A DNA stretch of 64,000 nt. Source: Ferribacterium limneticum. GTDB lineage: Bacteria > Pseudomonadota > Gammaproteobacteria > Burkholderiales > Rhodocyclaceae. The notes under the pieces are model-generated. The model was given only the letters and a program-made list of their open reading frames with translations. It made no database searches and was not told where the DNA came from. The position numbers were made by a program, and so were the translations under genes. Positions 5,556-25,807 of this stretch are shown here, piece after piece. Position 1 is the stretch's first letter, and every line of letters starts with the position of its first letter. The stretch covers positions 2,974,001-3,038,000 of the forward strand of contig NZ_CP075190.1 in the NCBI RefSeq assembly GCF_020510585.1. The letters are read 5' to 3'.

Positions 5556-5571
5556 CGCAATCTCCATGCCA
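5556..5571 (-). promoter_or_regulatory. Candidate sigma-54 promoter for the glcG-acoL-dadA operon
   Basis: On the minus strand the sequence is TGGCATGGAGATTGCG: a TGGCATG -24 element and a TTGC -12 element with GG and GC exactly 12 bases apart, as the sigma-54 consensus requires. The predicted start of transcription is near 5545, 60 bases before the ATG at 5485. Confidence 0.75.
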
Positions 5572-5644
5572 CCCCTTCGGCCGGGAGGATTGCCGCGCCA
5601 GCCTCAGCAAAACGACCAAAAACTGCATCTATAGGCAATGCAGA

Positions 5645-5682
5645 TGTCGCACCCCGACTGCGACACCTGTATCTTTGTCGCA
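5645..5682. promoter_or_regulatory. Putative upstream activator sites (AcoR?) shared by two divergent sigma-54 promoters
   Basis: A perfect inverted repeat TGTCGCA (5645-5651) / TGCGACA (5659-5665), with 7 bases between the arms, is followed by a third half-site TGTCGCA (5676-5682). The cluster lies 75-110 bases upstream of both the minus-strand promoter (5556-5571) and the plus-strand promoter (5757-5772), the usual enhancer distance for a sigma-54 activator. Assignment to AcoR is an inference from its position in the cluster. Confidence 0.65.
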
Positions 5683-5756
5683 GCAATAGCGATAAATACT
5701 GACGATTTTCCTCTCGCCAGCCCCGGATTCGAGCAAAAAACCACAAATTCCCCGGT

Positions 5757-5772
5757 TGGCATGGTCATTGCA
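5757..5772 (+). promoter_or_regulatory. Candidate sigma-54 promoter for the acoXABC operon
   Basis: The sequence TGGCATGGTCATTGCA matches the -24/-12 consensus (TGGCAYG, four bases, TTGCA) with the correct 12-base GG-to-GC spacing. The predicted transcription start is near 5783, 20 bases before the acoX ATG, so the leader consists of little more than the ribosome binding site. Confidence 0.8.
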
Positions 5773-5802
5773 GTGGTACGGCTATCCAAGGAGCCTGCTG
5801 CA

Positions 5803-6882
5803 ATGTCACCTGAACAATTTCCCGGAACAGCCTGCGTTGGGATCATCGCCAACCCTGTTTCTGCGCGCGATATTCGCCGCATCGTTGCAAACGCCAGCAA
5901 CCTGCAGACATCGGAGCGGGTAAGCATCGTTTTGCGGCTTCTGTCTACGCTTGCCTCCTGTGGCGTTGAGCGCGTGTTGATGATGCCCGACAAGGCTGGC
6001 ATCAGCTCGATGTTGCTGCGCAGCCTGAACCGTGAGCGCAACCTGAATCACACCCTGCCGGAACTGGAATTTGTTCCCATGGACGTGACGTCCACGGTCG
6101 ATGACACCTTCTTTGCCGCTCGCTATATGCAGGCAGCCAATGTAAGCGCGATCATCGTCCTGGGCGGCGATGGGACCCATCGCGCAGTTGTCCGCGAGTT
6201 GATTCGCGGAGTCCGCCGCGGTAAGGCCGCAGTGCCGATCGCCGGTCTCTCCAGCGGGACAAACAACGCCTTCCCTGAAATGCGCGAACCCACCGTAACA
6301 GCGATGGCAGTAGGCCTCTATGCCAAGGGAAAACTAAGCGCCCAACAGGCATTGGCGGCAAACAAGGTGCTGGAGATTTCGATCGATGACGGTCTCCAGC
6401 AGGATATTGCAATCGTCGACGCCGTTATTTCGTCTGATCGATTTGTCGGTGCTCGCGCCCTCTGGAAAACACAGAGTCTTCGGGCTGTCTATTTGACCTT
6501 CGCCGACCCGGAGGTAATCGGCATGGCTGCGATTGGCGGCCTGTTAGAACCTCTAGCCAGAGCCGATGCCGGCGGCCTGGCAATCACTCTCAACAACGAT
6601 CCAGAACAATGCCGTCTGCATCTTGATGTTCCGATCGCCCCTGGAATGATCTGCGATGTCGGCATCGCAGATTGGCGGCCGATGCCTGCCGATCATCCAT
6701 TCATAGTTCCGCTCGCTGCCGGCGTTGTTGCTCTTGACGGTGAGCGAGAACTTCCTTTTGAAGCTGGTCAGCAAGTCAGGATCACGCTCCGCGAGAACGC
6801 TTTTTCGACGGTGGATATTGCCAGATGCATGCGGGTCGCCGCATCTGAAGGCCTTTTCCGCCATACATCACCACGCCAATAA
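5803..6882 (+). CDS. acoX: AcoX, ATP-NAD kinase-like protein of acetoin catabolism
   Basis: A 359-residue protein, the same length as known AcoX. The N-terminal block VGIIANPVSARDIRRIV and the glycine-rich IIVLGGDGTHRAVVREL and PIAGLSSGTNNAFPEM are ATP-NAD-kinase-fold motifs (GGDGT, TNN). AcoX occurs in proteobacterial acetoin operons but its reaction has not been defined. The ATG at 5803 has AAGGAG at 5788-5793. The open frame extends upstream to 5638, but that part would lie before the sigma-54 transcription start and run through the activator sites, so it is rejected. First gene of acoX-acoA-acoB-acoC-lplA-thiamine-binding protein. Confidence 0.9.
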   Translation: MSPEQFPGTACVGIIANPVSARDIRRIVANASNLQTSERVSIVLRLLSTLASCGVERVLMMPDKAGISSMLLRSLNRERNLNHTLPELEFVPMDVTSTVDDTFFAARYMQAANVSAIIVLGGDGTHRAVVRELIRGVRRGKAAVPIAGLSSGTNNAFPEMREPTVTAMAVGLYAKGKLSAQQALAANKVLEISIDDGLQQDIAIVDAVISSDRFVGARALWKTQSLRAVYLTFADPEVIGMAAIGGLLEPLARADAGGLAITLNNDPEQCRLHLDVPIAPGMICDVGIADWRPMPADHPFIVPLAAGVVALDGERELPFEAGQQVRITLRENAFSTVDIARCMRVAASEGLFRHTSPRQ

Positions 6883-6897
6883 CAGGAGACATCCATC

Positions 6898-7884
6898 ATG
6901 GCAGACAACAATCCCTTCCCTATGTCGCGCGAAGAGTTGCTCGCCGCCTACAGGAAAATGCGCACGATTCGAGAATTCGAGGAGCGACTGCACATCGACT
7001 TCGGTCGTGGTGACATTCCTGGCTTCGTGCATCTTTATGCCGGAGAAGAAGCTACGGCAACCGGAATCATGTTCCATCTGGGCGACGGCGACCGTATCGC
7101 AAGTACCCACCGCGGTCACGGCCATTGCATTGCCAAAGGCGTTGACGTTATCGGGATGATGAAAGAGATCTACGGCAAGAAAGGCGGCTCCTGCAACGGC
7201 AAGGGCGGCTCAATGCATATCGCCGACCTGAGCAAGGGCATGATGGGAGCCAATGGCATTCTCGGTGCCGGTGCCCCGTTGATCTGTGGTGCGGCTCTTG
7301 CCGCCAAATTCCGTGGCAAAGGCGAAGTGGGTGTCACTTTCACCGGCGATGGTGCATGCAACCAGGGTACCTTTCTGGAGAGCATGAACCTCGCAGCAGT
7401 GTGGAATCTCCCAGTGATCTTCGTTGTTGAAAACAACGGCTACGCTGAATCAACCTCACGCGACTACGGCACAGCGGTAGAAAGCTTTGTCGATCGTGCT
7501 GCTGGTTTCGGCATGCCCGGTGTCAGCGTTGACGGCACCGACCTGTTCGCGGTCTACGAGGCTGCCGGCGAAATGATCAAGCGCGCCCGCCAAGGTGGTG
7601 GCCCAGCTCTACTTGAATGCAAGATGGTTCGTTTCTATGGCCACTTTGAAGGTGATGCGCAGACCTACCGCGCTCCTGGCGAGCTTGACGATATTCGCGA
7701 AAACCATGACTGCATCAAGATTTTGGCGACACAGCTGAAAAGCTCAGGTGTTGTAAGTGCCGATGAGCTCATGGCAATCGATCAACAAGTGATCGAACTG
7801 ATCGAAACCGCTGTCAAGGAAGCCAAGGCCGCCCCCATGCCGACTCTCGCCGACCTGACAAGCGACGTCTACATCAATTACTGA
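6898..7884 (+). CDS. acoA: Acetoin:DCPIP oxidoreductase / acetoin dehydrogenase E1, alpha subunit
   Basis: A 328-residue E1-alpha protein. It carries the thiamine-diphosphate and Mg-binding motif starting at GDG (150-152), continuing CNQGTFLESMNLAAVW and ending at NN (179-180), plus the E1-alpha block STHRGHGHCIAKG. With AcoB it cleaves acetoin and transfers the two-carbon hydroxyethyl unit to lipoyl-AcoC, releasing acetaldehyde. It has a good AGGAG site in the 15-bp gap after acoX. Its need for thiamine diphosphate fits the thiamine-related genes in the same region. Confidence 0.95.
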   Translation: MADNNPFPMSREELLAAYRKMRTIREFEERLHIDFGRGDIPGFVHLYAGEEATATGIMFHLGDGDRIASTHRGHGHCIAKGVDVIGMMKEIYGKKGGSCNGKGGSMHIADLSKGMMGANGILGAGAPLICGAALAAKFRGKGEVGVTFTGDGACNQGTFLESMNLAAVWNLPVIFVVENNGYAESTSRDYGTAVESFVDRAAGFGMPGVSVDGTDLFAVYEAAGEMIKRARQGGGPALLECKMVRFYGHFEGDAQTYRAPGELDDIRENHDCIKILATQLKSSGVVSADELMAIDQQVIELIETAVKEAKAAPMPTLADLTSDVYINY

Positions 7885-7916
7885 AACGAATATACAAGAC
7901 AAATCAGGAGATAGAA

Positions 7917-8930
7917 ATGGCAAGAAAACTCAGCATGAAGATGGCTATCAACGAAGCGCTTGACCAAGCCATGCAGGCCGACCCGACAGTGATTGTATTG
8001 GGCGAAGACATTGTTGGTGGTGCAGGTGGCAACGGCGAAATGGACGCGTGGGGTGGCGTGCTTGGTGTCACCAAAGGGCTTTACGCCAAGCATGGCGACC
8101 GCCTGATGGATGCGCCACTATCGGAAAGCGCCTATGTCGGCGCAGCCATTGGTGCAGCAGCATGTGGCATGCGCCCGGTCGCTGAACTTATGTTCATCGA
8201 CTTCATGGGTGTCTGTTTTGACCAAATCTTCAACCAGGCCGCCAAGTTCCGTTACATGTTTGGTGGCAAGGCCGAGACGCCTGTCGTCATTCGGGCGATG
8301 GTCGGTGCAGGTTTCCGTGCCGCCGCTCAGCACAGCCAGATGTTGACCCCGCTGTTCACACACATCCCGGGTTTGAAAGTTGTTTGTCCGAGCAATGCCT
8401 ACGACACGAAAGGCTTGCTGCTCCAGTCTATTCGTGACAACGACCCGGTCATTTTTTGTGAGCACAAAAACCTATATGCACACGAGTGTGATGTACCGGA
8501 AGGCCCGTACACGATACCGTTTGGTGAAGCCAGTATTTCCCGTGACGGGAAACACTGCACTATCGTCACTTATGGCTTGATGGTACATCGCGCGCTTGAT
8601 GCGGCAACCAAGCTTGCCAAAGAAGGCATTGAAGTCGAGATCGTTGATTTGCGCACGCTTTCCCCGCTGGACATGGATACCGTCCTTGACAGCGTGACCA
8701 AAACAGGTCGCCTCGTGTGTGTCGATGAGGCAAGTCCGCGCTGCAATATTGCGACGGATATCTCGGCACAGGTCGCGATGCATGCCTTTGGCGCACTGAA
8801 AGCACAGATCGAAATGGTCTCTCCGCCGCATGCGCCAGTTCCTTTCTCGCCAACACTGGAAGATCTTTACATTCCTAGCGCCGATCAGATTGCCAGTGCG
8901 GTACGCAAGACGATGAAGGGGGCGAAATAA
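7917..8930 (+). CDS. acoB: Acetoin dehydrogenase E1, beta subunit
   Basis: A 337-residue transketolase-type beta subunit. Typical E1-beta blocks are visible: VLGEDIVGG (with the Glu that activates thiamine diphosphate), MDAPLSESAYVGAAIGAA, RAAAQHSQ and VEIVDLRTLSPLDMDTV. It forms the heterotetrameric E1 with AcoA. AGGAG precedes the ATG at 7917. The stop codon TAA shares its last base with the ATG of acoC. Confidence 0.95.
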   Translation: MARKLSMKMAINEALDQAMQADPTVIVLGEDIVGGAGGNGEMDAWGGVLGVTKGLYAKHGDRLMDAPLSESAYVGAAIGAAACGMRPVAELMFIDFMGVCFDQIFNQAAKFRYMFGGKAETPVVIRAMVGAGFRAAAQHSQMLTPLFTHIPGLKVVCPSNAYDTKGLLLQSIRDNDPVIFCEHKNLYAHECDVPEGPYTIPFGEASISRDGKHCTIVTYGLMVHRALDAATKLAKEGIEVEIVDLRTLSPLDMDTVLDSVTKTGRLVCVDEASPRCNIATDISAQVAMHAFGALKAQIEMVSPPHAPVPFSPTLEDLYIPSADQIASAVRKTMKGAK

Positions 8931-10039
8931 TGGCGGGCATCACTCCGATTGTTATGCCCAAGTGGGGCCTATCGATGAAGGAAGGCACCGTAACGGCATG
9001 GCTGGTTGAAGAAGGTACCGAGATTTCCGTTGGCATGCCTATTCTCGAAGTCGAAACCGACAAAATTGCCAACGCAGTCGAGGCTCCCGACCCTGGGCTG
9101 CTTCGCCGCCGAATCGCAAATGAGGGCGACCTTTTGCCTGTTAAAGCGCTACTCGGGGTATTGGCTGGCGACGACGTCAGCGATGCTGAAATTGATGCCT
9201 ACATTGCCAACTATGTCACGCCGGCAAGTGCTGACGAAGAGGAGGATGCCGGTCCGGCATATCAATACATTGAAGTTGATGGCATCCGCATCCGTTACGC
9301 ACGAAAAGGCGCCGCAGAAGGTGTTCCAGTGCTGTTCATTCATGGCTATGGGGGCGATCTGGACAACTGGCTTTTCAACATCGACGCCGTTGGCGAAAAG
9401 CTGCCCGTAATCGCACTCGACCTTCCCGGCCATGGTCAATCTGCGGTCAAACTGCCAGGGACAAGCATTGCCGAGCTAGCCCGCTTCGTTATCGGGTTCA
9501 TGGATGCCATCGGCAACGATCGGGCGCATCTGGTTGGTCACTCCATGGGCGGGGCAATTGCAACGCAGGTCTCACTTGATGCTCCTGCCCGTGTTGCCTC
9601 TTTAACCCTGATTAGCAGTGCCGGCTTTGGCACTGAAATCAATAACGGTTATACGGATGGCTTCGCAAAGGCGCCATCGAGACGTGAACTCAAACCTGTA
9701 CTGGAACTGCTGTTCGCCGATCCCACCCTTGTCAGCCGGCAGTTGGTTGACGACGTACTTAAATACAAGCGCCTTGATGGTGTCGGCGAGTTACTGGGTG
9801 AGCTGGGTGGTTCGCTGTTTGGCGAGGGCAAGCAAAGTGAGCAGCCCGGCCTGAAACTTGGCAACGTTACCCCCGTTCTGGTGATCTGGGGGCGAGATGA
9901 CCAGATCATTCCAGTGGCTCATGCGTCAAATATGCCCGCTGGTGCTACCGTCGAAATATTTGATGCCACAGGTCACATGGCTCAGATGGAGCGCGCCAAT
10001 GACGTCAATCGCCTGATCATTCGTCATGTTGGTGGCTGA
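8930..10039 (+). CDS. acoC: AcoC: lipoyl domain fused to an alpha/beta-hydrolase
   Basis: A 369-residue protein. Residues 1-78 form a lipoyl domain with the modified lysine K45 in ETDKIAN. After an acidic linker (ADEEEDAG, about 101-108), residues 113-369 are an alpha/beta-hydrolase with nucleophile S205 (VGHSMGG), acid D323 or D324 (WGRDDQIIP) and H349 (ATGHMAQ). The usual E2 acyltransferase domain and peripheral-subunit-binding domain are absent. This architecture is known for AcoC of acetoin dehydrogenase systems. It accepts the acetyl group formed by AcoAB. The start overlaps the acoB stop by one base. Confidence 0.93.
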   Translation: MAGITPIVMPKWGLSMKEGTVTAWLVEEGTEISVGMPILEVETDKIANAVEAPDPGLLRRRIANEGDLLPVKALLGVLAGDDVSDAEIDAYIANYVTPASADEEEDAGPAYQYIEVDGIRIRYARKGAAEGVPVLFIHGYGGDLDNWLFNIDAVGEKLPVIALDLPGHGQSAVKLPGTSIAELARFVIGFMDAIGNDRAHLVGHSMGGAIATQVSLDAPARVASLTLISSAGFGTEINNGYTDGFAKAPSRRELKPVLELLFADPTLVSRQLVDDVLKYKRLDGVGELLGELGGSLFGEGKQSEQPGLKLGNVTPVLVIWGRDDQIIPVAHASNMPAGATVEIFDATGHMAQMERANDVNRLIIRHVGG

Positions 10040-10829
10040 AAAGCAGATCCACTTCGCTGCTGACAAGACCTGCGCCCAGCCTTCCTGGACGCAGGTCTTG
10101 TGTCCGGCCGAGCCGATTGACGGTGAAATTGAACTGGAGTGGCTTGAGCTTGCACTTGAGGGCAAGTCGACTGCGGCGCTTTGGGTAGGTAAGCAAGGCT
10201 TGGTTGCGCCGATGTCCTACAAACGCAGTACTAATCTTCCAGAGGTCTGCGTCGACTCTGCCTCACGAGGGTGGCCGGTGAGACTGCGCCGTTCAGGTGG
10301 TGGCGTCGTACCACAAGGCCCGGGCATCCTTAACCTGAGTTTGGCCAAACCCTGTGAAGCTCCCCCTGGGGAGCTTGCCGAAAGCGTCTATGACGAACTA
10401 TGCCTGGTGCTTGCTCGAGCGCTTGCCGGACTAGGCATCAATGCCGCAGCTCGTGCGGTTTCAGGATCTTTCTGTGACGGCCGGTTCAATCTCGCCGTCA
10501 TTAGCGCCAAGGACGGAACCTGTCGAAAAATTGCTGGTACAGCTCAATACTGGCGTCATGCAGGCGGGCGACATGCTGTGTTGGCCCACGCGCTGCTGAT
10601 TGTTGACGCAGAACCCGCAACACTTACTGCAGAAGCAAACCGCTTCGAGACAGCGCTCGGTAGCGGAAAAAGCTATGAAAGGAACGCACTGACTAGCGTT
10701 TCTAAAGCATGGCGCGAGGCTCACCCAGGAAAGAAGGTCCCAACCGGTCTTTCGAACGAACTAAGAGAATCAATCGTCGCAATACTGACCCAACAATACC
10801 CAACAGGAGATTACGATGTTACTACTTGA
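10026..10829 (+). CDS. Lipoate-protein ligase A family protein, probably for AcoC
   Basis: A 267-residue protein of the biotin/lipoate protein ligase fold. RRSGGGVVPQGPGILNLSL (RRSGGG, residues 88-93) is the lipoyl-AMP-binding loop. GRFNLAV...CRKIAGTAQ contains the conserved lysine (K168) of lipoate ligases. It lacks the C-terminal extra domain of E. coli LplA, so it is of the short type. It overlaps the end of acoC by 14 bases, which points to attachment or salvage of lipoate for K45 of AcoC. The start could also be a GTG at 10032. Whether it uses free lipoate or transfers octanoyl cannot be told. Confidence 0.85.
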   Translation: MLVAEKQIHFAADKTCAQPSWTQVLCPAEPIDGEIELEWLELALEGKSTAALWVGKQGLVAPMSYKRSTNLPEVCVDSASRGWPVRLRRSGGGVVPQGPGILNLSLAKPCEAPPGELAESVYDELCLVLARALAGLGINAAARAVSGSFCDGRFNLAVISAKDGTCRKIAGTAQYWRHAGGRHAVLAHALLIVDAEPATLTAEANRFETALGSGKSYERNALTSVSKAWREAHPGKKVPTGLSNELRESIVAILTQQYPTGDYDVTT

Positions 10830-11124
10830 ATTTGCAATGTTTCCAACGAACCGAGGGGATAGTGTAAGTCCCTTTGTGGCCCGATCGCTGGACATCATCG
10901 ACAATTCTGGTCTGCCCTATCAATTGACGCCGATGGGCACAATAATTGAAGGTGAATGGGAAGACGTGATGGGTGTAGTCAAGGCCTGCTTTGATGCGAT
11001 GAGCACGGACTGTGAGCGAATCGCCACCAACATCAAGATCGACTATCGAGCTGGCTCCGGGGAAAGATTGAAGAGCAAGGTCGAGTCTGTACAGAAGAAG
11101 GTCGGTAGAAAGCTGTCAACTTAG
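10816..11124 (+). CDS. Thiamine-binding protein, MTH1187/YqgV family (DUF77)
   Basis: A 102-residue protein with the MTH1187 fold pattern: an initial strand LLLEFAMFPT, ARSLDIIDNSGLPYQLTPMGTIIEGEWEDVMGVVKACFDAM and a basic C-terminus. Family members bind thiamine. It overlaps the ligase gene by 14 bases and ends the acoX operon. Association with a thiamine-diphosphate-dependent E1 suggests local supply or buffering of the cofactor; this role is inferred. AGGAG precedes the ATG. Confidence 0.8.
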   Translation: MLLLEFAMFPTNRGDSVSPFVARSLDIIDNSGLPYQLTPMGTIIEGEWEDVMGVVKACFDAMSTDCERIATNIKIDYRAGSGERLKSKVESVQKKVGRKLST

Positions 11125-11167
11125 TTTTGTTGAGCGCCAAGCGGGCGATGATCACTACATGAAAATC

Positions 11168-11203
11168 CGAAGCAGACTCCCTTTTGATGGTGAGTCTGCT
11201 TCG
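11168..11203. terminator. Hairpin between convergent aco operon and acoR
   Basis: A perfect 12-bp stem CGAAGCAGACTC (11168-11179) / GAGTCTGCTTCG (11192-11203) with a 12-base loop. It sits between the stop of the thiamine-binding gene and the stop of acoR. On the minus strand a short T run follows (GGATTTTC), so it may end acoR transcription and act on both sides. Confidence 0.55.
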
Positions 11204-11245
11204 CCAGGAACGTAATGGAGTGGATGTGGATCAGGACACGCGATT

Positions 11246-13249
11246 CTATTGATGAGTAGGCGAGACGATGTTTAGCCGTTTCATCTGTCGATATACGGTT
11301 GCTCTACAAATACCAAGCTCGTGCGAAACGGCAGTAATGTTCCAACGATGTTTGCGCAGGGCAGCGTTCAGTGTTTCGGCAGCCGAAGAGTCATTGGAAC
11401 CAAAACTCTCGTCGGCTGACGAAATTGAAACAGAAGAAAGTGGTGTTGCTGCCCTTTGCGGCTTGGCCTCATGGAGATCGCGCTCGCAATCGTCGTAGAG
11501 TTCTTGGGGCAAATGGGCGGCTTCGATATGGCCACTGTCACTAATTGCTACGGCAAAGCGAATTACGTTACGTAGCTGGCGGATGTTTCCTGGCCAAGAA
11601 TAGTTTAGTAAGAGCTCAAGCGCTTCGTCATCAATTTGAACATCATGATCTATTTGTTCAGTCTCTTGCTCCAATACGCGGGAAATCACAAAGGTCTTGT
11701 CCGCGCGAAGGCGTAGCGGAGGCAGGAGGAGGGATGCGCCGCACAGCCGATAATACAAATCCTCGCGAAAAACACCTTCAGCAATCAGGCGGCGCAGGTC
11801 ACGGTGTGAGGCAGCAACAACAGACAGCTGCACGGGAATCGGTTTTTCGGCGCCGAGCGGCATGACCTCCTGTTCAGCCAATACCCGTAACAAGCGCGTC
11901 TGTAGCAGTAACGGCATATCGCCGATTTCGTCAAGGAAAAGCGTACCCCCATCGGACTGTTGAATCAGACCTCGCGCCCCTTTACTGCGTCCACCGGTAA
12001 AACTGCCGGCAACATAGCCGAACAGCTCGCTTTCGATCAGCGACTCGGGGATCGAGGCGCAATTTACTGCAATGAATGGCTTTCCTGCCCGGGTACTCGA
12101 ATCATGCAGGGCGCGGGCTACAACCTCTTTGCCTGTACCTGTTTCGCCATGCAAAAGAATATTGACCTTCTTGTTGACCAGTCGCTTGGATTGGTCGATC
12201 AAACGCTGCATCTGACTATCACTGCCCGCCAGACGATCAAGGGCCGGGCATGCAATATGCGGGCTTTCCAGAGCGCGCAGATCGCTGCGCATACTGCGAC
12301 TTGGCTGATTACGAGGAGGCCTTGCGGCCGCATAAAATAGTTCGAGACGGTGGGTGCTCAGCACCGCCCGATCTGTGCTTGAGGCTGACCGGGCAATTTC
12401 CCATATCTGATCCATGCCCCCCTTGAAGACATCGGACAGCAGATGGCCAACTATCGGGACAAATAAACCATCGGCGGACATGGCCGCGAGAATTTTTCGG
12501 GCTACGCTGTTGGCACCAACGATAACGCCGTCGGCATCAAAGGCAAGCATGCAATTGCCACTGATATCGACCAAAGCCCAGTCCACGCTGAGCCGAAGTA
12601 TCCATTTGTCGCTGAAATAGCGAACAAAATTAGCATCTTCAACCATCTGGGCAAACATTGTGGTCATATGGCCGGCGAGATGCTGGCTGGTTTTCTCAGA
12701 CGGAGAGGTAAGTGCAGAAATATCAAGCACCCCTATAAACTCACCTGTAGGGTCAAAAAGAGGAGCTGCGGTGCAGGTCAAACCGATGTGTGTCGCATCG
12801 AAATGATCGGTCTGATGACAGGTAACCGGCACACGCTCAACAATGCAGGTACCTACGCCACTGGTTCCGGAGTGCGACTCCTGCCAGTCAGCGCCAAGAC
12901 AAAGACCGGAGCGTTTAAGGTCACGATCCCATTGGTCGTTGCCTATGCAGTCAACAGCAACTCCTTGTGCATCGGTCAGTAACAGTACGTAGCCAAGAGG
13001 AGAAACTCTTTTATATAGCTGCTCCATTCCAGCACGAGCAACCCGCAAGAACGACTCAAGCTGATCCTGATGTTCGCGAAGGCGTGCAGCCTCCAGGACC
13101 CGAGCTGGCTGTGTCCTGGAGGGATCCAGGCCATGATCGGAGACGCAGCGCGCCCACGAGCGGGTAATAATATCGTCATCGGCCAGTCCCTCGGCATGAC
13201 GCGACGTTCTCTCAATAACCTCGTTGATATGCCGAGTTTGAGTGTTCAT
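11246..13249 (-). CDS. acoR: AcoR-type sigma-54-dependent transcriptional activator
   Basis: A 667-residue enhancer-binding protein: N-terminal GAF-like sensor (about 60-210, including LLLTDAQGVAVDCIG), a PAS-like segment (MLAFDADGVIVGANSVA, about 234-250), an AAA+ domain with Walker A GETGTGKE (368-375) and Walker B LFLDEIGD (437-444), and a Fis-type helix-turn-helix at the C-terminus (about 637-660). The sigma-54 contact loop reads GSFTGG (415-420) instead of GAFTGA. It is expected to activate the acetoin genes through sigma-54 promoters; several such promoters occur in the window. GAGGAGA precedes the ATG at 13249. Confidence 0.92.
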   Translation of the reverse strand: MNTQTRHINEVIERTSRHAEGLADDDIITRSWARCVSDHGLDPSRTQPARVLEAARLREHQDQLESFLRVARAGMEQLYKRVSPLGYVLLLTDAQGVAVDCIGNDQWDRDLKRSGLCLGADWQESHSGTSGVGTCIVERVPVTCHQTDHFDATHIGLTCTAAPLFDPTGEFIGVLDISALTSPSEKTSQHLAGHMTTMFAQMVEDANFVRYFSDKWILRLSVDWALVDISGNCMLAFDADGVIVGANSVARKILAAMSADGLFVPIVGHLLSDVFKGGMDQIWEIARSASSTDRAVLSTHRLELFYAAARPPRNQPSRSMRSDLRALESPHIACPALDRLAGSDSQMQRLIDQSKRLVNKKVNILLHGETGTGKEVVARALHDSSTRAGKPFIAVNCASIPESLIESELFGYVAGSFTGGRSKGARGLIQQSDGGTLFLDEIGDMPLLLQTRLLRVLAEQEVMPLGAEKPIPVQLSVVAASHRDLRRLIAEGVFREDLYYRLCGASLLLPPLRLRADKTFVISRVLEQETEQIDHDVQIDDEALELLLNYSWPGNIRQLRNVIRFAVAISDSGHIEAAHLPQELYDDCERDLHEAKPQRAATPLSSVSISSADESFGSNDSSAAETLNAALRKHRWNITAVSHELGICRATVYRQMKRLNIVSPTHQ

Positions 13250-13544
13250 TTTGATTGTCTCCTCTGTGAGCTTCAGCTTCTCTAGATCTTTCGCGACAGA
13301 AGCTCTTTTAGGCCCCTTGCAACACTATCTACGTATTTTCAAGCACTACAACATTGAAAATATCTCTATTTGCCTAACAAAAACGTGCCAAATACGATAT
13401 TTACTCCTTCGTTTCATGATGCAAGGGCACGACAGCTTATTACTTATAGCATAGTTGCAAAAATGCAGGTTTGCCAAACCAGGCAACAGTTACGTTCCTT
13501 GTTTGGCACAAAGTACTACGGTGCTTTCTCTCAACGCAGCTAGC
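13250..13544. other. Intergenic region between acoR and the cytochrome c gene
   Basis: A low-GC spacer that should contain the acoR promoter. I see no sigma-54 site and no TGYGACA motif here. An 8-bp inverted repeat TGCCAAAC (13472-13479) / GTTTGGCA (13501-13508) with a 21-base loop may be an operator or a weak terminator for the cytochrome operon; neither is certain. Confidence 0.4.
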
Positions 13545-13958
13545 TCATTTGTCAGGCGTTTGCGTCGAAAGATACATAATGTAAGCAACCAGTTCCCAGC
13601 GTTTTTCTGCTGAGAAACCATTGCCCCAAGCCGGCATAACATCAGCCCCGCGTCGTCCATGGGTAATTACCTTGAAAACAGCTTCTGCATTCAGATCCTT
13701 ACGTCCCTTGAACGATGGAACCTTACCCCCGCTACCTTCGTTTCCGTGACAATAGGCCGCACAATTTGCTCCGAAGCGGGCTTTGCCAGCTGCAATACGG
13801 GACTCATCGTCGAGTTTGAAAGGTGGTAGGCCATGTTCTGTGGACGTGGCTGCCTCTGTTGGCACAGAGTCAGCGGGGGGCGCTGCGGACTGCGCAGAAA
13901 AAGAGAAAGTCAGAAACAAAGACAGAACAGCCATGCGTGTTGTAGAAAATCGATCCAT
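13545..13958 (-). CDS. Exported c-type cytochrome with an unusual CX3CH heme site
   Basis: A 137-residue protein: signal peptide (MAVLSLFLTFSFSAQSA) then one cytochrome c domain. The heme site is C66-A-A-Y-C70-H71, with three residues between the cysteines instead of two; the codons TGT GCG GCC TAT TGT CAC confirm it. M108 in DVMPAWG is the likely axial ligand. It is the last gene of the porin-quinoprotein operon and probably takes electrons from the quinoprotein encoded upstream. The ATG at 13958 starts directly before the signal peptide; a TTG at 14015 would add an implausible leader. Confidence 0.82.
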   Translation of the reverse strand: MDRFSTTRMAVLSLFLTFSFSAQSAAPPADSVPTEAATSTEHGLPPFKLDDESRIAAGKARFGANCAAYCHGNEGSGGKVPSFKGRKDLNAEAVFKVITHGRRGADVMPAWGNGFSAEKRWELVAYIMYLSTQTPDK

Positions 13959-14036
13959 TATCCGGTACCAGAAAGCGTAAAAAAAGCGGGGTAGACCAGC
14001 GGTTTCCCCCGCCAAAGCTCAGGGAGAGTCTTGTGC

Positions 14037-15722
14037 CTATTCCAGCGTGAAGCCAATCAATGCAGCACCGCCCGGCAGGTTCTTGATTTCCGGGAAGGCG
14101 CCGGCGAGGAAGCCAGGGGCATGTGACCCAAGGCCGGTCGGAACAGCGATGTATTGTTTGCCATTCACCGCGTAGCTAACCGGGCCGCCGCGAACGCCAG
14201 AACCAGCGGCGAATTTCCACAGTTCTTTGCCATCGTTGGCATCAAAGGCATAAATGTTGCCGCGCATATCCCCGGAGAAGACCAGGCCGCCACCGGTAGT
14301 CAGGACGCTACTCAACGGGGGGAGATCAAAGCGTTTTTTCCACTTGACTTCACCAGTGATCGGCTCAAATGCGGCGAGGTACCCGTCAGCCTTTTTCCCC
14401 TTCGGGTTTAGCAACGTGATCTCCGAAAGCCCCAGAGAGAGGCCGCTAATCGCCCCAACCTCTTCTTGCTTGGCTGCGGTCACCGTATTGCATACCTCCA
14501 TCCCGCTCGAATACCAAAGCGCGGTCTTGGGGTTATAAGCGCCGTGGTTCCAGCTGCGCGCCCCGAGCAGATTAGGGCAGAACAGTTTCTGCTTCCCTAC
14601 TTCAGGGTAGTTGGGATTGCTGATAGCACCGGTCTTCGGGTCGATGCCGCTAGTCCAGTTCTGATTTTCGGCATATTGCCAAACGTTTTCCAGCTTGCCG
14701 TTATCCTTGTCCATGACGAAGACAAAGCCGCTTTTGTTAAGGTGGACCAGAACATCTTTGCCTTTATGCGGGACCAGCAGCGCCTCATATGCTGAGTCAA
14801 AGTCCCATGCATCATTCGGAATTTCCTGACGGTGCCACTTGAGCTTGCCAGTCTTTGGATCGATGGCCAGTAGCGAAGCAGTGTACAGGTTGTCGCCCAT
14901 ACGTTCGTCACGGTAGTAGTCAGGTGAAGCATTGCTGGTGCCAATGTAAATCGTGTCGGTTCGCGGATCATATGTTCCCGGCATCCAGGCGCTACCACCA
15001 GCCGCCTTACGGCTCTTGCCTGGCCAACTCTTCGGGTCGTCCTTTGGAATTTCAAACGTCCAGACACGCTCGCCAGTATCGGCATTGACTGCAAAAACCT
15101 TACCGATGATTGGCTGGTCACCGCCTGTCGTGCCTCCGAACAGAATGTTCCCAGCTAGCTGCGGCGGGGCTGAGAAAAGTGCGCCATACTCGTCCTTGAG
15201 ATTGCTCAACTGGGTAGACCAAATTTCTTTCCCGGACTTCTGATCAAGTGCAACAAAGCGGCCATCAAGGGTGCCAATGAAGACCTTTCCTCGGCCAACT
15301 GTGACACCTCGGCTTGCTGCAGCATAAAAAACTTCTTTCGACAACGGATCAAGTTTGGCCACATAGTGCCAAATCGTCTTTCCGGTAGCCGCATCGATCG
15401 CCCAAACGTTGTTATCGGCTGAGATTGTGTACATCACACCATCAATGACAATCGGCGTTGACTGCAAGCCATGGGTAATATTTCCAGGCTGGTGAATCCA
15501 CGCTACCTTGAGTTTCTTGACGTTGCTCTTGTTGATCTGGTTCAGGGGAGAAAATCGCCATGCATTGAAACTGCGGTGATACTGCGGCCAGTTGTTCGGA
15601 TCGTCATATCCAGGCCCGGTCTGCGCAGCCGCGGGCGCAATCATGAACCCGGATAGCGTCGAAAAAGCAGTCAGGGCTATAGCATTAACCTTCATGCGAA
15701 ACAGCTTTCGTTCGATTTTCAT
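14037..15722 (-). CDS. PQQ-dependent alcohol dehydrogenase (quinoprotein), periplasmic
   Basis: A 561-residue quinoprotein with a signal peptide (cleavage near PAAAQ) and an eight-bladed propeller with repeated AxDxxTGxxxW motifs (AIDAATGKTIW, ALDQKSGKEIW, AVNADTGERVW, AIDPKTGKLKW). The catalytic base region is AWDFDSAYE with D307 and D309; the second Asp is the one typical of lanthanide-type enzymes. The vicinal Cys pair found in many quinoprotein alcohol dehydrogenases is missing (Phe-Tyr near 132-133). It oxidises alcohols in the periplasm and passes electrons to a cytochrome c. GGAGA lies 8 bases before the ATG at 15722. The substrate is unknown. Confidence 0.9.
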   Translation of the reverse strand: MKIERKLFRMKVNAIALTAFSTLSGFMIAPAAAQTGPGYDDPNNWPQYHRSFNAWRFSPLNQINKSNVKKLKVAWIHQPGNITHGLQSTPIVIDGVMYTISADNNVWAIDAATGKTIWHYVAKLDPLSKEVFYAAASRGVTVGRGKVFIGTLDGRFVALDQKSGKEIWSTQLSNLKDEYGALFSAPPQLAGNILFGGTTGGDQPIIGKVFAVNADTGERVWTFEIPKDDPKSWPGKSRKAAGGSAWMPGTYDPRTDTIYIGTSNASPDYYRDERMGDNLYTASLLAIDPKTGKLKWHRQEIPNDAWDFDSAYEALLVPHKGKDVLVHLNKSGFVFVMDKDNGKLENVWQYAENQNWTSGIDPKTGAISNPNYPEVGKQKLFCPNLLGARSWNHGAYNPKTALWYSSGMEVCNTVTAAKQEEVGAISGLSLGLSEITLLNPKGKKADGYLAAFEPITGEVKWKKRFDLPPLSSVLTTGGGLVFSGDMRGNIYAFDANDGKELWKFAAGSGVRGGPVSYAVNGKQYIAVPTGLGSHAPGFLAGAFPEIKNLPGGAALIGFTLE

Positions 15723-15800
15723 CAATTTAGTCTCCAGTTATTCGAATTTGAACCTCCTTAAAACCCACCATGATCTGGGCTTTTGGAGGCGCTTAGTTAC

Positions 15801-16973
15801 TCAGAAGGTAAAGTTGAGACCAACATTCAGGAGAAAAGACTGTTCTCCGACAGCGGGGATGCCCGCGGCGACAATGCTGGTCTTGATCGTTGCAGCAGAG
15901 CCGGCGTCAACGTAGGCCATCTGGACATAAAACGTGGTGTCGGGCCTAAATGAAAAGTCATTGCTGAAGACAAGGTTACGGGTGTGATCATTTGAGTTCC
16001 GTTTGTCCTTGTTGTCGTAATAGGCAACGGTCGCCGTGTTTCGGGGGTGCCACTTCCAATCGACACCCACGCCGATTCCGTCTACGTCAGATACATTTGC
16101 ACCCGCTTTGGTGTCGTTCTTGGCATTCAGATAATTTCCCTTAAAGGTGAAATCGCCGAAAGGAATAGCAATACCAAGTCCGGCATGCTTCACGTTGCTG
16201 TGAGCGGTCGCCTCATCCTTAACTTCCTGATACGACGCTGAAAGGGTGACCGGACCGGTGTAAGTAGCGCCAAGTGCATACGCGCTGTTTTTTTCCATGC
16301 CCCCCTCTTTGCCACCAAGAGCCCAGAGGACGCCGAAATTCACGGGGCCAATAGTATTGCGGTACTGAATTGCATTGCTAAAAAATATACCAACGTCGTT
16401 ATTTGTATTTCGGTCAGTGCCAGGCCCACCCGCGGTGGCCGCATATTGGTTGTAGGCCCAGGCGTAGAGGTTGGAGAACTGCTCTTTGAATGCCCTGGGC
16501 TCAGTCGCTATATGTGCCAGCAGCGCCGGACCATATTGGCGACCAAGCGTGACACTGCCCCAATCTCCGCTCAGGCCGAGATTTGCCTGGCGACGGAAAA
16601 GCACGTTGCCTGTACCCGCGGCATCACCCGTACCATGAAAATTGCCGTTGTTTGTATCGAAGTGGGCTTCGAGGTTAAAGAAACCGCTCAGGCCTTTGCC
16701 CAAATCTCTATTTCCCTTGAAACCGAGTACGGATTGACGCAAGCCGCTCGTTTCCATCGATGTCTTGCTGCCACCGCCTCCTTGATCAGATTTGCTCTGA
16801 TAAAGGAATCCAGCATCAATAATCCCGAAGATTTCCACACCGGGCAGTCCAGTTTCTAAAGCCTGCGACGCCGGTACCATAGACAGCATCAGTACGGCCG
16901 CCGCAACGGTATTTTTCTTTGAGAAATTCGCATGAACGCGGATTCTGCAAGTTTTGCTTTTAGTAAAAGTCAT
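15801..16973 (-). CDS. Gram-negative porin (OmpC/general diffusion type)
   Basis: A 390-residue outer-membrane porin. After a signal peptide (VAAAVLMLSMVPASQA) come the betaproteobacterial porin blocks VEIFGIIDAGFLYQS, GLRQSVLGFKGNRDLGKGLSGFFNLEAHFD and FRRQANLGLSGDWGSVTLGRQYGPAL, and the protein ends in LNVGLNFTF with the terminal Phe needed for barrel assembly. It is the first gene of the operon with the quinoprotein and cytochrome, so it probably admits the alcohol substrate. AGGAGG precedes the ATG, and a sigma-54-type promoter lies at 17056-17071. Confidence 0.9.
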   Translation of the reverse strand: MTFTKSKTCRIRVHANFSKKNTVAAAVLMLSMVPASQALETGLPGVEIFGIIDAGFLYQSKSDQGGGGSKTSMETSGLRQSVLGFKGNRDLGKGLSGFFNLEAHFDTNNGNFHGTGDAAGTGNVLFRRQANLGLSGDWGSVTLGRQYGPALLAHIATEPRAFKEQFSNLYAWAYNQYAATAGGPGTDRNTNNDVGIFFSNAIQYRNTIGPVNFGVLWALGGKEGGMEKNSAYALGATYTGPVTLSASYQEVKDEATAHSNVKHAGLGIAIPFGDFTFKGNYLNAKNDTKAGANVSDVDGIGVGVDWKWHPRNTATVAYYDNKDKRNSNDHTRNLVFSNDFSFRPDTTFYVQMAYVDAGSAATIKTSIVAAGIPAVGEQSFLLNVGLNFTF

Positions 16974-17055
16974 TGTCCCCTCCTAATGTTAATACTTAAC
17001 AATTAATGGTTTAACGTAATGCTCGCGCTGCAAAACATTCGTTGATGGGACAGAG

Positions 17056-17071
17056 AGCAGAGTTCATGCCA
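17056..17071 (-). promoter_or_regulatory. Candidate sigma-54 promoter for porin-quinoprotein-cytochrome operon
   Basis: On the minus strand the sequence is TGGCATGAACTCTGCT. The -24 element matches fully and the -12 element is CTGC, with GG and GC 12 bases apart. Predicted start near 17045, 72 bases before the porin ATG. Confidence 0.65.
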
Positions 17072-17143
17072 GCACAAAAAGTGCTTAAAACTGGTCGTAA
17101 ACAGTGAATATTCAAAATTATTCGCTTAAATTTCAATATTCCC

Positions 17144-17203
17144 TGCGACAGTTGTAGCTTTGCGACATCTCCAGCAGCGACAGTTGTCTAAAGGCTGCGA
17201 CGA
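17144..17203. promoter_or_regulatory. Cluster of TGCGACA activator half-sites between porin and thiC
   Basis: TGCGACA occurs at 17144-17150 and 17161-17167, AGCGACA at 17176-17182 and TGCGACG at 17196-17202; GCGACAGTTGT is repeated at 17145 and 17177. The same half-site forms the inverted repeat upstream of acoX. The cluster lies 73-130 bases from the porin promoter and about 180-240 bases from the candidate thiC promoter. Confidence 0.6.
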
Positions 17204-17333
17204 AAAGACCAGATTTCAGGGCAGGCTTTAAGGATTGATATAACTGCCCTCGTCCCTCCCGGCTCACATTCCTCTTGATAAGCACCGAGGCGCTTGCTGC
17301 AACGAAGGCGTTCCCGGGCGCGCTAGCGCCTAG

Positions 17334-19412
<2,079 letters not shown>

Positions 19413-19507
19413 TTCAACACCCGTCCCGCCATTGCAACAGCCGCCTCATCGCACTTCCGAAGCATTTTTCTGACACTGAATAAACCTATTTCAACAGGAG
19501 ACATAAA

Positions 19508-19978
19508 ATGAAAATTACCCACGCACTCGGAACAAGCATCGCGCTGCTCGTCGCTTTCTGGGTTTACGTCAGCATCGGACACCCCGAACTGAAACTCTAT
19601 CCATGGATCGGTTTCGTCGCCTGGGCTGCTTTTTTTGCCGCCGGAGGGGGCCGCACCGGCTTGGTCAAACCTCTTGCCACCAGCACGGCTGGCATCGTTC
19701 TGACTGCGCTCACCATGTATGGCGTCGGTCAGTCTGGGAACGGCCTGGTGATACTTATGCTGTTGGTCGCGATCCTGGCTTTCGTGTTGGTGTTGATATC
19801 AGAAGTTGGCATTTTTTCATACACACCAGCAGCGTTCTTGGGTGCGGCAACGTATTTTGGCTCGGGGAGCAAAATAGACGAAAGCATCGTATTCGTCATT
19901 CTTTCGTGGGTTGCCGGGCTACTTCTCGGTTACGCATCCGAGGTAATTGGTAACAAGATCGCGCGCCCTGCAGTTTAG
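19508..19978 (+). CDS. DUF1097 family integral membrane protein
   Basis: A 156-residue hydrophobic protein with about five transmembrane segments (around residues 8-24, 28-46, 55-72, 80-100 and 130-147). The pattern is that of DUF1097, whose function is unknown. It lies between thiC and thiS, with an ACAGGAGA ribosome binding site, and ends just before the thiS start region, so it is probably cotranscribed with the thiamine genes. A role in precursor or vitamin transport would be a guess. Confidence 0.75.
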   Translation: MKITHALGTSIALLVAFWVYVSIGHPELKLYPWIGFVAWAAFFAAGGGRTGLVKPLATSTAGIVLTALTMYGVGQSGNGLVILMLLVAILAFVLVLISEVGIFSYTPAAFLGAATYFGSGSKIDESIVFVILSWVAGLLLGYASEVIGNKIARPAV

Positions 19979-19989
19979 TGAGGTATTGC

Positions 19990-20220
19990 ATGTCCGCGAT
20001 TAAATGCCAAGAGGCAAGTCAAGTTGTCACGGTCAACGGCGAAGCTGCCCTCTTTCCCCTTGACACCTCAGTTGCCGCCTTGCTGGCCGCGCGCGGAATG
20101 GCGGGAAAGCGCGTCGCTGTCGAGCGCAACGGCGAGATCGTTCCCCGAAGCAAGCATTCAGATACGACGTTGATTCATGGCGACCGTATCGAAATTGTCA
20201 TTGCTGTCGGTGGTGGCTGA
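19990..20220 (+). CDS. thiS: Sulfur carrier protein ThiS
   Basis: A 76-residue ubiquitin-like protein ending in Gly-Gly-Gly (IVIAVGGG); the C-terminal Gly-Gly is the site adenylated and thiocarboxylated during thiazole formation. The N-terminus is slightly longer than usual (typically about 66 residues). [39 protein letters not shown] and GDRIEIV match the family. GAGG lies 8 bases before the ATG at 19990. Directly followed by thiG. Confidence 0.92.
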
Positions 20221-20249
20221 AACGTTCTGGAACGCTAGGTGAATCAATA

Positions 20250-21047
20250 ATGGAAGATCCTCTGATCATTGCAGGCAAGAGCTACCGATCGCGCTTGCTT
20301 GTCGGAACGGGCAAGTACCGGGACTTTGCGGAAACAAAAGCGGCAATTGATCTCAGCGGTGCCGAGATAGTTACCGTTGCCATTCGTCGTACCAATATCG
20401 GTCAGGATACTAGCCAGCCATCACTGCTCGATTTCCTGCCGCCTTCCCGCTACACGCTATTGCCGAATAGCGCCGGGTGTTACACGGCGGCGGACGCAGT
20501 ACGCACACTGCGACTTGCTCGGGAACTTCTCGACGGACATAGCCTGGTAAAACTCGAAGTCCTGGGCGATGGCAAGACACTATTCCCTGATATGCCAGCC
20601 ACTCTTGAAGCCGCTAGCATCCTCGTCAAGGATGGTTTCAAGGTCATGGTCTATTGCGCTGACGACCCCATCCAGGCCAAGCGTCTGGAGGAGTTGGGCT
20701 GTGTCGCGATTATGCCTCTCGCCAGCTTGATCGGTTCGGGCATGGGGATTCTAAACCCGTGGAACTTAAGGCTCATTATCGACAATGCAAAAGTGCCTGT
20801 CATTGTCGATGCCGGTGTTGGCACCGCGTCAGATGCCACCATTGGCATGGAACTGGGATGCGCAGGAGTACTTATGAACACTGCAATTGCCAGTGCGAAA
20901 AATCCGCCATTGATGGCGAAGGCAATGAAAAATGCTGTTCAGGCTGGGCGCGAAGCGTACCTTGCCGGACGTATGCCGAAGAAACTCTATAGTGGAGATC
21001 CGTCATCGCCGACGGATGGGGTAATCGGTTCACCAAGCCACCGCTGA
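20250..21047 (+). CDS. thiG: Thiazole synthase ThiG
   Basis: A 265-residue TIM-barrel enzyme that builds the thiazole phosphate of thiamine from deoxyxylulose phosphate, dehydroglycine and ThiS thiocarboxylate. K101 in VKLEVLGD is the Schiff-base lysine, and [34 protein letters not shown] and [18 protein letters not shown] are family blocks. It follows thiS by 29 bases. No thiE, thiD or thiO/thiH follows, so the rest of the pathway must be elsewhere. Confidence 0.95.
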
Positions 21048-21334
21048 CGGACAAACCCAAAAGCTTGGCGAGTTACCCGGCAAAGCGACGCATGGGCGGG
21101 CGAAGCCGCTACCTCGCAGCCCATGGCTGACGCCCGCCCGTCGTCCCCCAGCCCCCTCTGGCAGGTGCGGCCGAGTTTGCGCGCCGGCCCATACCCCCCG
21201 CGCACGGCGCTTGCTGCCTCACCATGGCAAGCAAGCGTTCCTGCGCTGTCTTTCAGGCAACTTCCAGGCTATCGCGGCCGAAACGTCCGTGGAGAATTCC
21301 TCTCTGTGCCCTGATTCGCCCCCGGGAACGCGAC
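21048..21334. other. Gene-free stretch downstream of thiG with GC-rich inverted repeat
   Basis: Nothing here looks coding. A stem GGGCGGGCG (21093-21101) / CGCCCGCCC (21131-21139) can extend through GCGAC/GTCGT with a small bulge and encloses a second pairing GCCCATG with CATGGGC. There is no T tract, so it is not a classical terminator. It may still end or protect the thiG transcript. Confidence 0.4.
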
Positions 21335-21391
21335 TGTGACAGATGTATCCCATGTCACACATTTCCCTGTAATAGCAGATACAGATGTCAC
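21335..21391. promoter_or_regulatory. Putative activator sites upstream of the second quinoprotein operon
   Basis: An inverted repeat TGTGACA (21335-21341) / TGTCACA (21353-21359), 11 bases apart, and a third half-site TGTCACT (21386-21392). The half-site TGTGACA differs from the TGCGACA of the acoX and porin regions by one base. The cluster lies 52-108 bases upstream of the sigma-54-type promoter at 21443. Confidence 0.55.
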
Positions 21392-21442
21392 TTAATTCGC
21401 TGAAAAGCGCCAAAAACAGGCCTGTTAACGGCCTGTTATGCG

Positions 21443-21458
21443 TGGCATGGAACTCGCT
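21443..21458 (+). promoter_or_regulatory. Candidate sigma-54 promoter for the second quinoprotein operon
   Basis: TGGCATGGAACTCGCT has a full TGGCATG -24 element and a TCGC -12 element with the right 12-base spacing. Predicted start near 21469, 71 bases before the ATG at 21540. Confidence 0.6.
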
Positions 21459-23312: not shown

Positions 23313-23360
23313 GCAATATGGATGGCGCGCCCTCCCCGGGGCGCGCTCAGGAGTCTGGAA

Positions 23361-24841: not shown

Positions 24842-25807
24842 ATGGCAGACAACGCAGGCAGCGTGAAACAAAAAGGCGTCAAGCAAAGAGGCGAACTCAA
24901 AACCGCGCGCATCCCCATCAAGATCGTGCCGGTCGACACCCCGCTGCGTAAACCCGAGTGGATACGCGTCAAGGCCGGCAACAGCGCCGGCCGCTTCGGC
25001 GAAATCAAGACCATGCTGCGCGAAAAGAAGCTGCACACCGTCTGCGAAGAAGCCGCCTGCCCGAATATCGGCGAGTGCTTCGGCCGCGGCACGGCGACCT
25101 TCATGATCCTCGGCGACATCTGCACCCGGCGCTGCCCGTTCTGTGACGTCGGCCATGGTCAACCCCTGCCGCCCAACCCGGACGAACCGCGCGAACTGGC
25201 CGAGTCGGTCGCCACGCTGAAGTTGCGTTACGTCGTCATCACCAGCGTCGACCGCGACGACCTGCGCGACGGCGGCGCCCAGCACTTCGTCGACGTCATC
25301 AGCAATGTCCGCAAACTGTCGCCGACGACCACCGTCGAGACGCTGGTCCCCGACTTCCGCGGCCGCATGGAAGTCGCCCTCGACGTCCTCGGCGGCGCCC
25401 TGCCCGACGTGCTGAACCACAACATGGAAACGGTGCCCCGCCTCTATAAACAGGCCCGCCCCGGCGCCGACTACACGCACTCGCTCGAATTCCTCAAGCA
25501 GTTCAAGGCGCGCTATCCGAACGTCAAAACCAAATCCGGCCTGATGGTCGGCCTCGGCGAAACTGACGAGGAAATCCTCGACGTCATGCGCGACCTGCGT
25601 GCCCACGATGTCGAAATGCTGACCATCGGCCAGTATCTGGCGCCGTCCGGCCACCACCTGCCGGTCACCCGCTACGTCCACCCCGACACCTTCAAGATGT
25701 ATCAAGAAGAGGCGAAGAAAATGGGCTTCACCGGCGCCGCCTGCGCGCCAATGGTCAGATCCAGCTACTGGGCCGACGAGCAGGCGCACAGCGCCGGCGT
25801 GGCCTGA
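24842..25807 (+). CDS. lipA: Lipoyl synthase LipA
   Basis: A 321-residue radical-SAM enzyme that inserts two sulfurs into protein-bound octanoyl groups. Auxiliary-cluster cysteines C68, C73 and C79 ([12 protein letters not shown]) and the SAM-cluster motif C94-x3-C98-x2-C101 (CTRRCPFC) are present, with the C-terminal RSSY. No clear ribosome binding site precedes the ATG at 24842. The usual neighbour lipB is absent: the 100 bases upstream follow the terminator of the low-GC quinoprotein operon, so lipA may have lost its original upstream region. LipA serves AcoC as well as the core 2-oxoacid dehydrogenases. Confidence 0.95.

Follow-up and report, generated by a model that had tools for sequence, protein, structure and literature searches.

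Gene content of the acetoin and alcohol utilization block

The 64-kb window analyzed here (64,000 nucleotides of contig NZ_CP075190.1, part of the single-contig 4.42-Mb genome of Ferribacterium limneticum, labeled G000) contains a catabolic block that combines genes for two quinoprotein alcohol dehydrogenases, acetoin dehydrogenase, second genomic copies of thiC, thiG, and lipA, and an AcoR-type enhancer-binding protein, which is the predicted regulator of these genes. Genes were assigned by NCBIfam and Pfam family models, and the gene map of the window is from this analysis; by these models the block spans 2.2-25.8 kb (coordinates are those of the window unless C1 is named).

On the minus strand, the genes for a DadA-type FAD oxidoreductase (2240-3490), dihydrolipoyl dehydrogenase (lpd, 3510-4973), and a GlcG/HbpS-like protein (4970-5485) are separated by gaps of at most 19 bp and probably form one operon. 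Divergently from them, the plus strand carries acoX (5803-6882, assigned by its position and an NAD-kinase-like domain), acoA (6898-7884), acoB (7917-8930), and acoC (8930-10039), followed by a lipoate/octanoyl-transferase-like gene (10026-10829) that scores under the cut-offs of its models. The acoR gene (11246..13249, minus strand) encodes a protein with an AAA+ sigma-54 domain, a lid, and a Fis-type helix-turn-helix. Further along the minus strand are the genes for a cytochrome c (13545-14015), quinoprotein 1 (14037-15725), and a porin (15801-16973), probably also a single operon. The remaining genes are on the plus strand and encode ThiC (17490..19412, with the ATG at 17490), a DUF1097 membrane protein (19508..19978), ThiG (20250..21047), quinoprotein 2 (21540-23312), a MoxJ-like periplasmic protein (23322-24176), another cytochrome c (24221-24703), and LipA (24842..25807). 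The 138-bp gap between the genes of the quinoprotein 2 transcript and lipA has no entry in the terminator scan; by eye, an inverted repeat with four T after it can be seen there, and it is uncertain whether lipA belongs to the transcript that starts at the 21443 promoter. The lipA gene sits in DNA of higher GC content than the block.

The acetoin dehydrogenase set comprises E1 alpha and beta subunits, a hydrolase-fold E2, E3, and AcoX. E2 (AcoC) exceeds the cut-off of NF011457, a model for the E2 of acetoin dehydrogenase, and E3 is likewise above its own, while E1 beta is barely above its subfamily cut-off and E1 alpha falls under the pyruvate dehydrogenase cut-off. Both quinoproteins have the quinoprotein ethanol dehydrogenase 6zcv as their best PDB match; quinoprotein 2 scores 552.4 with TIGR03075 (cut-off 480.05) and has vicinal cysteines and a WDYD motif, and quinoprotein 1 scores 434.3, under the cut-off, and has WDFD and no vicinal cysteines. 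We take the WD[FY]D motif to mark lanthanide use in quinoproteins. In Pseudomonas putida, the quinoproteins PedE and PedH oxidize (2S,3S)-2,3-butanediol to acetoin (excerpt of PMC8427195). A route from 2,3-butanediol via acetoin to acetyl-CoA explains both the gene set and why thiamine diphosphate and lipoate are needed.

The GC content of the block is 0.554, compared with 0.600 in the 26-64 kb part of the window, and an AcoR ortholog was found in just 1 of 75 other congeners. Both features support acquisition, and by these sequence criteria the block looks acquired. This extends the original prediction, which had joined the alcohol quinoproteins, acetoin dehydrogenase, and thiamine synthesis in one regulon. 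Our further additions are that thiC is a riboswitch-free, mosaic second copy and that lipA and the lipoate-transfer-like gene belong with the other genes.

Predicted sigma-54 promoters and enhancers of the block

The five sigma-54 promoter sites of the original prediction were all recovered at their positions and with their spacing. They precede the glcG-lpd genes (5556..5571, minus strand, TGGCATGGAGATTGCG, score 16.3), acoX (5757..5772, plus strand, TGGCATGGTCATTGCA, 19.3, the best score of the window), the porin gene (17056..17071, minus strand, TGGCATGAACTCTGCT, 16.4), thiC (17381..17396, plus strand, GGGCATGGCTTTTGCT, 15.2, with the ATG 109 bp downstream), and the quinoprotein 2 gene (21443..21458, plus strand, TGGCATGGAACTCGCT, 15.6). 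All are intergenic, each is directed at a gene start 46-109 bp away, and in each, 10 bases separate GG from GC within the context TGGCAYR-N4-TTGCW. A plain consensus scan of the window with up to 3 mismatches gave 177 matches against 191.6 expected; in view of this lack of enrichment we used scores of a weight matrix of generic sigma-54 shape, which was written down after the sites had been seen but was not fitted to them. By these scores the five sites rank 1-5 in the window (15.2-19.3, the sixth best site scoring 12.8), and they are the top five both with a neutral matrix and with one favoring C over T at the CATG position. Among 60 dinucleotide shuffles, sites as good numbered 0.85 on average (maximum 4) with the neutral matrix; with the C-preferring matrix, shuffles had a mean of 1.58 and a maximum of 5. 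The GGCATG motif claimed for all five sites held in a stricter form for four: GGCATGN5YGCW occurs four times in the window, each time at a predicted site, and the fifth site, at 5556, has a terminal G.

The half-sites TGYGACA cluster as had been proposed, 7 of the 18 in the window lying within three intergenic regions. Between the divergent glcG and acoX promoters there are TGTCGCA, TGCGACA, and TGTCGCA (5645..5682), between porin and thiC two TGCGACA, AGCGACA, and TGCGACG (17144..17201), and upstream of the quinoprotein 2 gene TGTGACA and TGTCACA (21335..21359). The 24-base enhancer pattern TGYGACANNNGTANCNNTGYSRCA has two exact matches in the 4.42-Mb genome, both in the window, and a 25-base variant has a single match, also exact, at the third region (its control pattern has 1 match at up to 2 mismatches). 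This 25-base pattern, the first to be tried, was discarded, having one base too many between the half-sites; it matched the 21335 site alone, and the 24-base pattern matches the other two. In mismatch-tolerant searches neither pattern exceeds its reversed control, and at up to 3 mismatches the control of the 24-base pattern is the commoner (37 vs. 21), so that exact matches alone count.

The genome-wide scan that the original prediction had called for supports the specificity of the combined signal. TGGCATGN5YGCW has 21 exact matches in the genome, compared with 4 for the reversed pattern; within 400 bp upstream, at least 2 half-sites are present at three of the 21, all in the window, one at three others, and none at 15. 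The half-sites of the three window sites begin at -79 to -112 from the promoter. Outside the block, two strong sigma-54 sites each have a single TGYGACA half-site, located at -111 or -91; they lie about 0.2 kb (L049, G000:C1:1180714) and about 2.4 kb (L052, G000:C1:1610075) from an activator-domain protein or match.

As originally predicted, AcoR alone among the proteins of the window matches the sigma-54 activator domain; across the genome, PF00158 has 27 matches, of which 20 exceed 200 bits and another reaches 86. AcoR matches PF00158 and PF02954, the AAA+ activation domain and the Fis-type helix-turn-helix, and has no Pfam GAF match at 0.001. Its gene is linked to acoXABC, with an enhancer upstream of the aco genes. 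Orthologs of at least 58% identity were found in 10 of 149 other genomes sampled from the family; six of the seven named AcoR relatives are from Betaproteobacteria (including Thauera and Rhodoferax), and the seventh is a distant match. Comparison of clades ties the enhancer to this protein. Loci with window-like AcoR mostly have GCGACA half-sites (23 C, 2 A, 3 T, and 2 G at the variable base; 7 regions of 4 loci), whereas loci with AcoR of about 40% identity mostly have GAGACA (47 A, 17 C, 2 T, and 2 G; 16 regions of 11 loci), and the recognition helices differ in parallel, being of the CRATVYRQ and SRATFYRK types, respectively. The C/A contrast (23:2 vs. 17:47) has a Fisher p of 2e-8 in these regions, which were hand-picked by the analyst and in which sites of the same locus are not independent. 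Parallel changes in the half-site base, the AcoR clade, and the recognition helix point to AcoR, rather than another activator, as the predicted owner of the enhancer.

Conservation among relatives had been set beforehand as a test of the prediction, and both signals are kept: related loci retain sigma-54 sites and a GNGACA-NN-YGT enhancer at the porin/quinoprotein, thiC, and aco promoters. Our survey covered 35 promoter regions, taken from the window and from 15 related loci (of which L117 and L118 share a contig); these regions are not independent, as divergent genes have promoter regions in common. The enhancer core is present in 33 of the 35 and a sigma-54 score of at least 11 is reached in 32; the core, which was defined by inspecting several of the surveyed regions, has a density of 4.04 per kb in them vs. 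0.059 per kb in the rest of the same loci. In 31 regions, no more than 6% of the windows in that locus reach an equal sigma-54 score, the exceptions being L106 acoX, L108 thiC, L099 porin (start guessed), and L119 acoX, which is just above 6%. In an out-of-sample test, 16 loci that had not been used for defining the core contained 20 distinct cores in 299 kb (L090 and L127 overlap and their shared core was counted once), and the 15 control loci, which total 281 kb, contained 4 (p 0.0013). Leaving out L032 and L089, whose half-sites had been seen earlier, changes the counts to 18 and 4 (p 0.0011). Five control loci carry a distant AcoR homolog of 31-40% identity (L104, L124, L126, L129, and L130), and L124 accounts for two of the four distinct cores found in the controls.

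The acoR and aco genes occur together with further parts of the block in at least 11 other genomes (G028, G133, G044, G005, G060, G118, G140, G104, G070, G030, and G094), a lower bound from the subset of AcoR homologs that was inspected. Several of the inspected homolog loci (e.g., L092, L095, L124, L126, and L161) have none of the other block genes. Divergent thiC and porin genes are found in the window and in six of the 11 genomes (G028, G133, G005, G060, G118, and G140), and thiG follows lipA in eight (G133, G044, G005, G060, G118, G094, G070, and G030; in G060, the DUF1097 gene intervenes); in several loci the contig ends before or within thiC. A wider search with quinoprotein 1 in the order sample matched 3 other genomes of 398 at E 1e-200; two other-family genomes from this search were fetched, of which G868 alone has most of the block. 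In G868, which belongs to another family of the same order and has a 1.5-Mb genome, the closely similar block (L160) includes the quinoproteins, aco genes, lpd, glcG, and a DUF1097-thiG pair preceded by a strong sigma-54 site.

The second thiC copy and its control region

The resident thiC (C1:4126928-4128799), whose product is 92% identical to the block ThiC, has a thiamine pyrophosphate (TPP) riboswitch (RF00059), and no RF00059 riboswitch was found in the window at the gathering score. Two complete thiC copies are present in 8 of 150 family genomes, a count that leaves out G001, G009, G043, G078, and G145 (two partial copies, or one complete and one partial). In five of the eight (G000, G005, G060, G118, and G133) one copy is in the block, and among these the TPP riboswitch precedes the resident copy in all five and the block copy in none; the block thiC fragments of G028 and G140 also have none. 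For comparison, a riboswitch was found at 9 of 20 genes in single-thiC genomes, where up to about 0.8 kb upstream was fetched and distances of about 1 kb fall outside. Upstream of seven block copies the sigma-54 scores are 8.8-15.2, compared with at most 10.1 in 32 other copies (p 4e-5), and half-sites number 2-7 vs. 0-3 (p 1e-5). Without a TPP riboswitch, expression of the block thiC should escape TPP shut-off.

The other three two-copy genomes (G049, G067, and G139; L102, L105, and L111) have a riboswitch-free thiC-thiG pair elsewhere that follows an open frame resembling a membrane protein gene, and upstream of this second thiC there is no sign of a sigma-54 site or an enhancer. We therefore rejected the idea that every second thiC belongs to the regulon; neither a spare thiC nor its likeness to the resident gene is unique to it. 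The resident thiC of G067 and G139 also bears a riboswitch, about 1 kb upstream; the G049 thiC copy in L103 has no TPP riboswitch at the gathering score.

The thiC copy of the window is a mosaic. It is diverged from the resident gene up to about position 17891 and resident-like over 17892-19396 (99.07% identity, with one mismatch over 17955-19363), the identity per 100 bases rising from 45-80% in the first part to 98-100%, and the last bases are again diverged. The GC content is 0.507 in the foreign part vs. 0.617 in the resident-like tract, and no such identity step was found between the resident thiC and that of a congener. As a near-identical internal tract between a foreign 5' end and a diverged 3' end does not fit simple duplication, the simplest reading of the sequence is gene conversion of the block copy by the resident one. 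In the ThiC tree, the block copy is the sister of its own genome's resident ThiC in all five genomes (ultrafast bootstrap 96-100). The block thiG, just 71% identical to the resident thiG at the nucleotide level, has undergone no recent conversion. The block lipA is 96.5% identical to the resident lipA over the matched part, with 33 mismatches in 938 aligned bases, and these are spread throughout, so the case for a mosaic cannot be carried over to lipA.

The proposed AcoR regulon and its alternatives

We propose, with a probability of about three in four, that the block was acquired and is controlled through sigma-54 by its own AcoR, serves the utilization of 2,3-butanediol or a similar alcohol and of acetoin, and supplies thiamine diphosphate and lipoate for its own enzymes. 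AcoR would sense acetoin, 2,3-butanediol, or a related alcohol and bind the GCGACA-NN-TGT enhancers, which precede the promoter sites of acoX, porin, and quinoprotein 2 by about 80-110 bp; the enhancers at 5645-5682 and 17144-17201 would each serve a divergent promoter pair. Induction of the porin and of the two quinoproteins with their cytochromes c would allow periplasmic oxidation of the diol or alcohol, and AcoABC with lipoamide dehydrogenase would cleave the acetoin. The second thiC and thiG, with the second lipA nearby, would provide the thiamine diphosphate and lipoate of AcoABC, to the presumed benefit of flux, and the riboswitch-free thiC would stay expressed despite TPP. Gene conversion by the resident copy would have overwritten most of the coding sequence of this thiC, with its control region remaining foreign. 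The one-signal regulon of the original prediction, joining alcohol oxidation, acetoin cleavage, and cofactor synthesis, thus finds support at the sequence level in the conservation of the sites and in the covariation of the half-sites with AcoR. We further suggest, at somewhat less than an even chance, that sigma-54/enhancer control replaces the TPP riboswitch on a spare thiC, such that catabolism of a thiamine diphosphate-demanding substrate commands vitamin synthesis, and that recombination with the resident copy keeps the enzyme host-matched while the foreign control region persists, so that the block could move between bacteria and have thiC refitted in each new host.

Several observations weigh against these proposals. 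The window AcoR has GSFTGG at the position of the GAFTGA sigma-54 contact loop; its close relatives vary alike (GxFTG[GA]; GSFTGG, GTFTGG, or similar in L029, L030, L087, and L088), and the clade of 40% identity retains GAFTGA wherever the motif was located. Outside the family, close AcoR matches are scarce, a single one (50% identity) being found at E 1e-180 among 368 other genomes in the class sample, and in G868 neither acoR nor thiC is present within the 20 kb fetched. Sigma-54 scores are low at L106 acoX (9.9) and L099 porin (3.7, start guessed), the core is missing at L087 thiC and L097 acoX, and 5 of the 16 test loci are coreless (L091, L092, L095, L128, and L161). Among the five sites of the window, that of thiC scores lowest and has G in place of T as its first base, and its counterparts in some relatives are degenerate (L108, 8.8; L100, 11.6). 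The G044 thiC near the block retains a TPP riboswitch, and the second thiC copies outside the block, besides their lack of regulatory signs, likewise pair with their own resident copies (in G067 weakly).

We consider it improbable that AcoR governs the aco promoter only, with the porin, thiC, and quinoprotein sites under another sigma-54 activator that recognizes a similar palindrome. Candidates for such an activator are encoded among the 20 strong activator-domain matches of the genome, including an AcoR paralog (37%) at C1:1178625-1180520, and three other sigma-54 sites (L049, L052, and L061) are each preceded by a lone TGYGACA half-site; however, the aco, porin, and quinoprotein 2 promoters carry the same enhancer at equal spacing, and its variable base follows the AcoR clade across the pooled regions. 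A similarly slim chance is left that the thiC and thiG copies are constitutive or otherwise controlled and stand here fortuitously, together with the thiC sigma-54 site. The atypical first base of this site, its weakness in some relatives, and the three second thiC copies without a sigma-54 sign would fit such an accident, but thiC is divergent to porin in seven genomes, with half-sites in all and the best site toward thiC at -73 to -185; in six of the seven this site beats the best of the 32 other thiC copies, and DUF1097-thiG stands behind a strong sigma-54 site even in the other-family genome.

Two further alternatives concern the origin of thiC and the substrate; both appear unlikely, though less so than those above. 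If the resident gene had instead been duplicated recently and independently in each genome, with no conversion of an inherited copy, this would account for the pairing of block and resident ThiC in all five genomes and of the copies outside the block as well. The four genomes besides that of the window show 90-100% similarity in every 100-nt window; in these four, repeated duplication may have taken place. This explanation has to contend with the internal tract and unlike ends of the window thiC, and with a thiC position and control-region type common to the genomes. Alternatively, the block may serve ethanol or longer alcohols, its thiamine diphosphate enzyme acting on another ketone and AcoR sensing alcohols as does BmoR of Thauera butanivorans, an alcohol-regulated sigma-54 activator (excerpt of PMC6366067). 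The ethanol dehydrogenase match of both quinoproteins agrees with this, whereas the acetoin dehydrogenase model passed by acoC and the formation of acetoin by PedE and PedH argue for the 2,3-butanediol and acetoin route that we prefer.

Parts of the proposed regulon have counterparts in known systems. Pelobacter carbinolicus has a 28-gene acetoin cluster, mostly upregulated on acetoin, that includes acoABC, acoX, acoR, the lipoyl synthase gene acoS, and five thiamin synthesis genes, with redundant thiamin genes outside the cluster (excerpt of PMC3543383). The link between acetoin and thiamine is thus already known. The excerpted account of P. carbinolicus has no quinoprotein dehydrogenase, porin, sigma-54 enhancer map, riboswitch comparison, or gene conversion, and among the open-licence literature matches listed, as excerpted, we found neither quinoproteins under AcoR nor a riboswitch-free thiC copy or thiC mosaic. 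The AcoR regulon of Clostridiales has a sigma-54 promoter and upstream enhancer at aco genes, but acoABCL are the sole AcoR targets listed in the excerpt of PMC6615313. In P. putida, AcoR also accompanies the aco genes (PP0552-0557), but PedE and PedH (PP2674 and PP2679) are encoded away from them (excerpt of PMC8427195). BmoR is comparable as a sigma-54 activator that responds to alcohols and has an upstream inverted repeat, but its target is the promoter of an alkane monooxygenase (excerpt of PMC8899819; the likeness is by description, not by sequence comparison). The named relatives of the window AcoR include a Thauera locus.

If the proposal is true, a substrate whose breakdown needs a vitamin can drive the synthesis of that vitamin and override the usual end-product riboswitch. 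The refitting of thiC in an acquired catabolic block, through recombination with the resident copy, would bear on the way in which such blocks become established in a new host, and the half-site difference between the two clades offers a testable AcoR enhancer code. In three loci (the window, L107, and L160), the gene for the DUF1097 membrane protein adjoins thiG, and this protein is possibly linked to thiamine or its precursors.

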